A stretch of DNA of 64,000 bases from contig JAJDUG010000074.1 in the NCBI GenBank assembly GCA_022826755.1, forward strand, positions 1 to 64,000, given 5' to 3'. The notes under the pieces are model-generated. The model made no database searches, was not told where the DNA came from, and saw only the letters and a list, made by a program, of their open reading frames with translations. The DNA is from Acidobacteriota bacterium. GTDB taxonomy: Bacteria; Acidobacteriota; Terriglobia; Versatilivoradales; Versatilivoraceae. Both the position numbers and the translations under genes were made by a program. Within the stretch, counting starts at the first letter, position 1. Each line of letters opens with the position of its first letter. This document shows positions 44,138-44,560 of the stretch, in pieces.

Positions 44138-44560
44138 TCAACTCCCGGACTTGGGGAATATCCTCTTTCCCTTGTAGCTTCTCAGCCCGCAGGAGCCGGC
44201 AGTCCAGAATCCGTTCTTCTTGAGTAGGGCCGCGGCACGCGCGGCTCGGCCGCCGCCGTTTCAGGCGGTGACGATCAGCCTGTCCTTGGGCAGCTCGTCC
44301 AGGCGCTGCTCCAGTTGGCCGATGGGAATGTTGATGTAGCCTTCCAGGGTTCCCAGTTTTTCCAGCTCCGAGGGCTCACGGACGTCCAGCAGCAGGGCGT
44401 CCTTCTGCATGAGCCCGTCCAGGTCGGCGGCGGCGATGCGCGGGGGCTTGTCCTCCGCGGGCACGGCGCCGGCTCCGCCCGCGGGCCCCTCCTGCTGGCA
44501 GCCGGCGGCCGCAAAGGCCAGGAAGGGCAGGGCCACCCAGCTTGAAATCTGTTTTTTCAT
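44138..44560 (-). CDS. Rhodanese-domain lipoprotein, candidate selenoprotein (in-frame UGA at active site)
   Basis: GGAGG precedes ATG 44560. The signal peptide ends in a lipobox (AFAAAGC, Cys 21). A rhodanese domain follows: ALLLDVREPSELEKL, YINIPIGQLEQRLDELP. A TGA at 44263-44261 stands at codon 100, exactly where the catalytic Cys belongs (LIVTA-x-NGGGRAARAA). The frame continues with a normal rhodanese C-terminus (ALLKKNGF, CGLRSYKGKR) to TGA 44140-44138, giving 140 residues. A GC-rich hairpin (GGCCG/CGGCC) starts ten bases after the UGA, a plausible SECIS. Rhodanese-related selenoproteins are known in bacteria. Alternatives are a Cys-to-stop mutation (TGC to TGA) or a sequencing error. 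Ordinary gene calling would end the protein at 44261. Confidence 0.72.

Follow-up and report, generated by a model that had tools for sequence, protein, structure and literature searches.

A 64,000-nucleotide stretch of acidobacterial DNA, referred to here as the window, carries on its minus strand (44560-44138) a gene for a 140-residue rhodanese in which an in-frame TGA, 44263-44261, occupies the position of the catalytic Cys. Comparison with relatives indicates that this is almost certainly an intact selenoprotein gene, in which the UGA would be read as selenocysteine (Sec100). The gene belongs to a large Acidobacteriota family, most of which is unannotated, and it is the comparative evidence that carries the selenoprotein claim because the hairpin of the window gene alone proves little.

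The frame starts at ATG 44560-44558, four bases after a probable ribosome-binding site (GGAGG, 44569-44565) that is also present in congeners, and comprises 140 codons including Sec100, followed by a terminal TGA at 44140-44138. The internal TGA sits in the context LIVTA-TGA-NGGGRAARAA, and 40 sense codons separate the two TGAs. The coordinates of the frame and of its internal TGA agree with the original prediction, made from the sequence of the window, of a rhodanese frame that is interrupted at the catalytic Cys and continues for 40 codons to a true stop. The N terminus (44560-44498) is a putative signal peptide ending in a lipobox, MKKQ...LAFAAAGC21, which is invariant across six congeners and probably a lipoprotein signal; its lipobox-like AAGC was judged by eye. 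The product is, on this sequence, probably exported and lipid-anchored. Most relatives also have signal peptides or lipoboxes when inspected by eye, and some have a plain signal peptide, or none evident, in place of a lipobox; the predicted lipid anchor, likely here, does not extend to all relatives. The gene 47 nt upstream (45948-44608), which is co-oriented and had been described as ManD-like, encodes an MR_MLE protein of the mandelate racemase/enolase superfamily and is not a conserved partner of the rhodanese.

The UGA codon and its hairpin across the Acidobacteriota

Every congeneric species with the gene, six in number, retains the TGA, and each is represented by a separately made Acidobacteriota metagenome assembly; we did not find the gene in the seventh species of the genus, the assembly of which is incomplete. 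Among these six congeners, residues vary at only 3 of the 40 codons after the TGA and synonymous variation occurs in 6 of the 37 residue-invariant codons, and the sequence diverges beyond the terminal stop. Searches of the phylum, of two other classes and of the window's own class, followed by extraction, brought together Sec-rhodanese sequences that have the TGA at the same codon: 85 distinct ones, found in 77 Acidobacteriota genomes that represent 16 families. Their active-site motifs include UNGGGR, UQGGGR, UNAGGR, UGSGGR and similar. Homologues carry either U or Cys at exactly the TGA column.

Several other candidates were set aside. A rhodanese fragment with a TGA (L039, genome G008) is unrelated, with the TGA 5′ of the active site in a frame that looks decayed; in L090 (G177) the domain ends before the TGA; and L057, from another phylum, is an ordinary Cys rhodanese. 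The plasmids searched gave only weak rhodanese matches.

Downstream of the UGA, the window gene can form a hairpin (44245-44229) in which GCCGCG (44245-44240) pairs with CGCGGC (44234-44229) around the loop CGUGC (44239-44235). The apical loop begins 22 nt 3′ of the UGA, and the element is of the bSECIS type, being a hairpin soon after the UGA whose apical loop opens with a G. In an alignment of 12 sequences, the stem pairs columns 18-24 with columns 30-36, counted from the UGA, and both sides have changed in five of the seven pairs. This alignment contains 13 doubly changed cells, compared with 4.0 in shuffles (0/500 as high), and the signal is lost when the pairing is slid by one to three bases. 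With 26 sequences the count is 20, compared with 5.2 in shuffles (again 0/500 as high), and RNAalifold picks the same stem unaided. In a second group of sequences the stem has 7 bp and the loop 3 bases (GGC, GUC or GGA), starting at UGA+18.

In GC-rich codons the stretch AARAA is able to pair by chance, and for this reason we took Cys orthologues as a control. When the window gene is recoded synonymously, a chance 6-bp hairpin appears in around 10% of cases, and the single-sequence folding energy of this gene alone does not differ significantly from that of the recoded versions. Scoring for either of the two stem registers, with at least 5 of 6 pairs required in one and all 7 pairs in the other, detected the hairpin in 30 of the 31 Sec genes that had been newly fetched and in none of 11 Cys orthologues (p=3e-9, a value that overstates independence because the rows are related). 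Covariation and the orthologue control thus strongly support a hairpin at 44245-44229 that would direct decoding of UGA 44263-44261 as Sec. The pairing initially proposed, of GGCCG (44251-44247) with CGGCC (44232-44228), is present and overlaps this stem, but it covaries weakly and no more than 75% of cells keep it; it is the 44245-44240/44234-44229 stem that is conserved.

A lone TGA in an otherwise normal frame of a draft genome in 81 contigs might suggest a pseudogene or a sequencing or assembly error, with TGC or TGT turned into or misread as TGA, but the chance of this is negligible given that the TGA is common to six separately assembled congeners and to 77 genomes from 16 families, that purifying selection continues 3′ of it and that the covarying hairpin is confined to TGA forms. 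A Cys-to-stop mutation, which the original prediction had left standing, is excluded because the TGA is conserved.

Synonymous sites 3′ of the hairpin are also nearly invariant among the six congeners. Within codons 113-137 (44224-44150), 2 of 24 residue-invariant codons vary, compared with 32 of 77 before the UGA, a constraint that reaches further along the gene than the hairpin accounts for.

Selenocysteine machinery and the Sec, Cys and Ser forms

The window derives from a 4.6 Mb acidobacterial draft genome with an estimated completeness of 100%. The genome encodes a tRNA-Sec with anticodon UCA (69 bits; ARAGORN concurs) together with SelB (341 bits), SelA (525 bits) and SelD (347 bits). 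The SelD (L047, G000:C68:75886-76815) is itself a selenoprotein, with an in-frame TGA at the known Sec site CAGUASK, which makes it probable that the genome recodes UGA at other loci as well. More widely, 22 genomes with an in-frame-UGA rhodanese (three of them of the CxU type) were tested for selB; 20 have it, and the two without a match are no more than 72-75% complete. Among genomes from outside the window's family, selB occurs in 14 of 16 with a UGA rhodanese and in 7 of 17 others (p=0.010).

The frame is open whatever residue the TGA encodes, as would also be expected if TGA had acquired another meaning, such as Trp, or if near-cognate tRNAs read through it with no selenium involved. By contrast, TGA acts as an ordinary stop in both the upstream MR_MLE gene and the rhodanese gene itself, the genome has the full Sec machinery, and the homologous residue is Cys, which makes reassignment or selenium-free read-through highly improbable. 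Mutation, assembly error and a reassigned code are, for practical purposes, excluded. The initial proposal of a selenoprotein, which had pointed to selA, selB, selD and tRNA-Sec, to a U-or-Cys alignment column and to a bSECIS element as places to look, is supported by the machinery, by the homologues and by the covarying hairpin alike.

In a tree of 122 rows, Cys orthologues are interleaved with Sec forms. The well-supported branches force at least three Sec/Cys changes, and the simplest count is around ten, with many forks uncertain on the few columns available. The clearest exchange is L143, a Cys form nested in a Sec clade; a view of the clade as Sec-only proved wrong when the class search turned up Cys orthologues such as this one. 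A small clade with the motif SNHAARAG (L064, L072, L091, L092, L175 and L177 among its members) has Ser, and neither Sec nor Cys at either position. There was no match to selB in the two Ser-clade genomes tested, G370 and G213. This paralogue clade is possibly a former selenoprotein lineage that has been put to another use.

Related bacteria carry natural versions of the protein with Sec, Cys or Ser, which makes the family a good test set for the gain and loss of Sec. It is also suited to studying the decay of the hairpin after the UGA is lost, and bears on why selenium would be worth its cost to an exported enzyme that handles sulfur.

Rhodanese domain and predicted chemistry

The Pfam Rhodanese domain (PF00581; 44428-44204) matches residues 45-119 across the TGA read as a residue (48.3 bits; cut-off 22.2), and both Foldseek and profile searches match rhodanese domains. 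The profile aligns the TGA with the catalytic Cys in the rhodanese domain of a Shewanella persulfide reductase, and a fold search with an AlphaFold model built from five sequences (pLDDT 69, moderate) ranks the same rhodanese domains first.

Of the 63 entries in the first set, duplicates included, 56 have a second Cys exactly 24 residues after the Sec. In the window protein this is Cys124 (codon 44191-44189), which takes the place of one Gly in the usual GG loop and is kept by most Sec members. The Sec members that lack it are those of family f103 genomes (L182, L184 and L190-L192) and most second tandem copies in L115-L123. These tandem loci, from family f89 genomes, contain a pair of neighbouring Sec-rhodanese genes, both of which have a UGA and a hairpin of their own; the second copy has the motif UMVGPR, and Ser replaces Cys124 in most copies. 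No neighbouring gene is conserved across families, so genomic context does not indicate a substrate.

These features suggest the following scheme. SelB and tRNA-Sec would decode UGA 44263-44261 as Sec, guided by the hairpin directly downstream (44245-44229), to give an exported, probably lipid-anchored, single-domain rhodanese. The Sec100 selenolate, in its U-x-x-G-x-R loop, would take sulfane sulfur from a persulfide, polysulfide or thiosulfate to form a Se-S adduct. Cys124, at the usual GG loop, could then free the sulfur through a selenenylsulfide with Sec100, which a periplasmic dithiol partner would re-reduce. The enzyme would serve as a cell-envelope sulfurtransferase or persulfide reductase. 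We favour sulfur-transfer or persulfide-reductase chemistry as the somewhat more probable function; the pairing of Sec100 with Cys124 is a tentative element of the scheme, to which we give a little less than an even chance.

The protein might instead be a selenoprotein that acts as a peroxidase-like or other thiol-disulfide oxidoreductase, or in selenium delivery. According to a 2026 inventory (PMC13188914), most of the selenoproteins predicted in bacteria are presumed to be thiol oxidoreductases, and most members of the present family have a second Cys beside the Sec. However, the domain, the active-site loop and the nearest solved structures are all those of rhodaneses, the best being rhodanese domains of persulfide reductases. 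We consider such a role unlikely, if well short of negligible, and retain sulfur transfer or persulfide reduction as the preferred reading.

Relation to known Sec rhodaneses

Rhodanese-related selenoproteins were recorded in surveys of the Sargasso Sea (PMC1088965) and of the GOS data (PMC2398784), and the 2026 inventory describes five rhodanese-like selenoprotein forms, two of which (forms 2 and 4; PF00581) have a UxxG motif (PMC13188914). Deep-Sep was tested on one acidobacterium, for which no new selenoprotein genes were reported (PMC12013277). No NCBIfam model reaches its cut-off against the window protein, and standard annotation pipelines can thus be expected to shorten such genes or overlook them.

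Form 3, NF041203 (rhodanese_LYCAU), is also a Sec rhodanese but has its Sec in a CxU motif; the window protein lacks this motif and scores 19 bits against this model (cut-off 115). Three exported rhodaneses with CSU or CTU motifs (L087, L088 and L089, from genomes G208, G078 and G302) lie near NF041203, and have a post-UGA hairpin that matches that of the UxxG family both in its distance from the UGA and in its GUGC loop.

The closest matches in both sequence and fold are the rhodanese domains of the NADH-dependent persulfide reductase of Shewanella loihica (3ntd/3nt6) and of a CoA-disulfide reductase (RHD; 3icr). Sec100 aligns with their catalytic Cys. These domains differ from the window protein in having Cys rather than Sec, in being fused to a flavoprotein and in having no Cys at the position aligned with residue 124.

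The window protein resembles forms 2 and 4 in having a rhodanese domain, Sec in place of the catalytic Cys and Gly three residues on. In the window protein this UxxG arrangement is U-N-G-G-G-R, with UNGG as its first four residues. The likeness to these forms (references MBM9537886.1 and MCY3690685.1) is one of described features. An exported or lipoprotein form, a Cys 24 residues after the Sec and a spread across the Acidobacteriota do not feature in the accessible part of the account of forms 2 and 4 (PMC13188914). It is conceivable, and in our view rather doubtful, that the proteins studied here constitute a separate, unmodelled subfamily of exported Sec rhodaneses, in which Sec and the Cys 24 residues on would make a one-domain envelope persulfide or polysulfide reductase rather than a classical sulfurtransferase, with repeated Sec/Cys exchange across the Acidobacteriota. 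Sec rhodaneses as such are a kind already known, to which the window protein adds a member.
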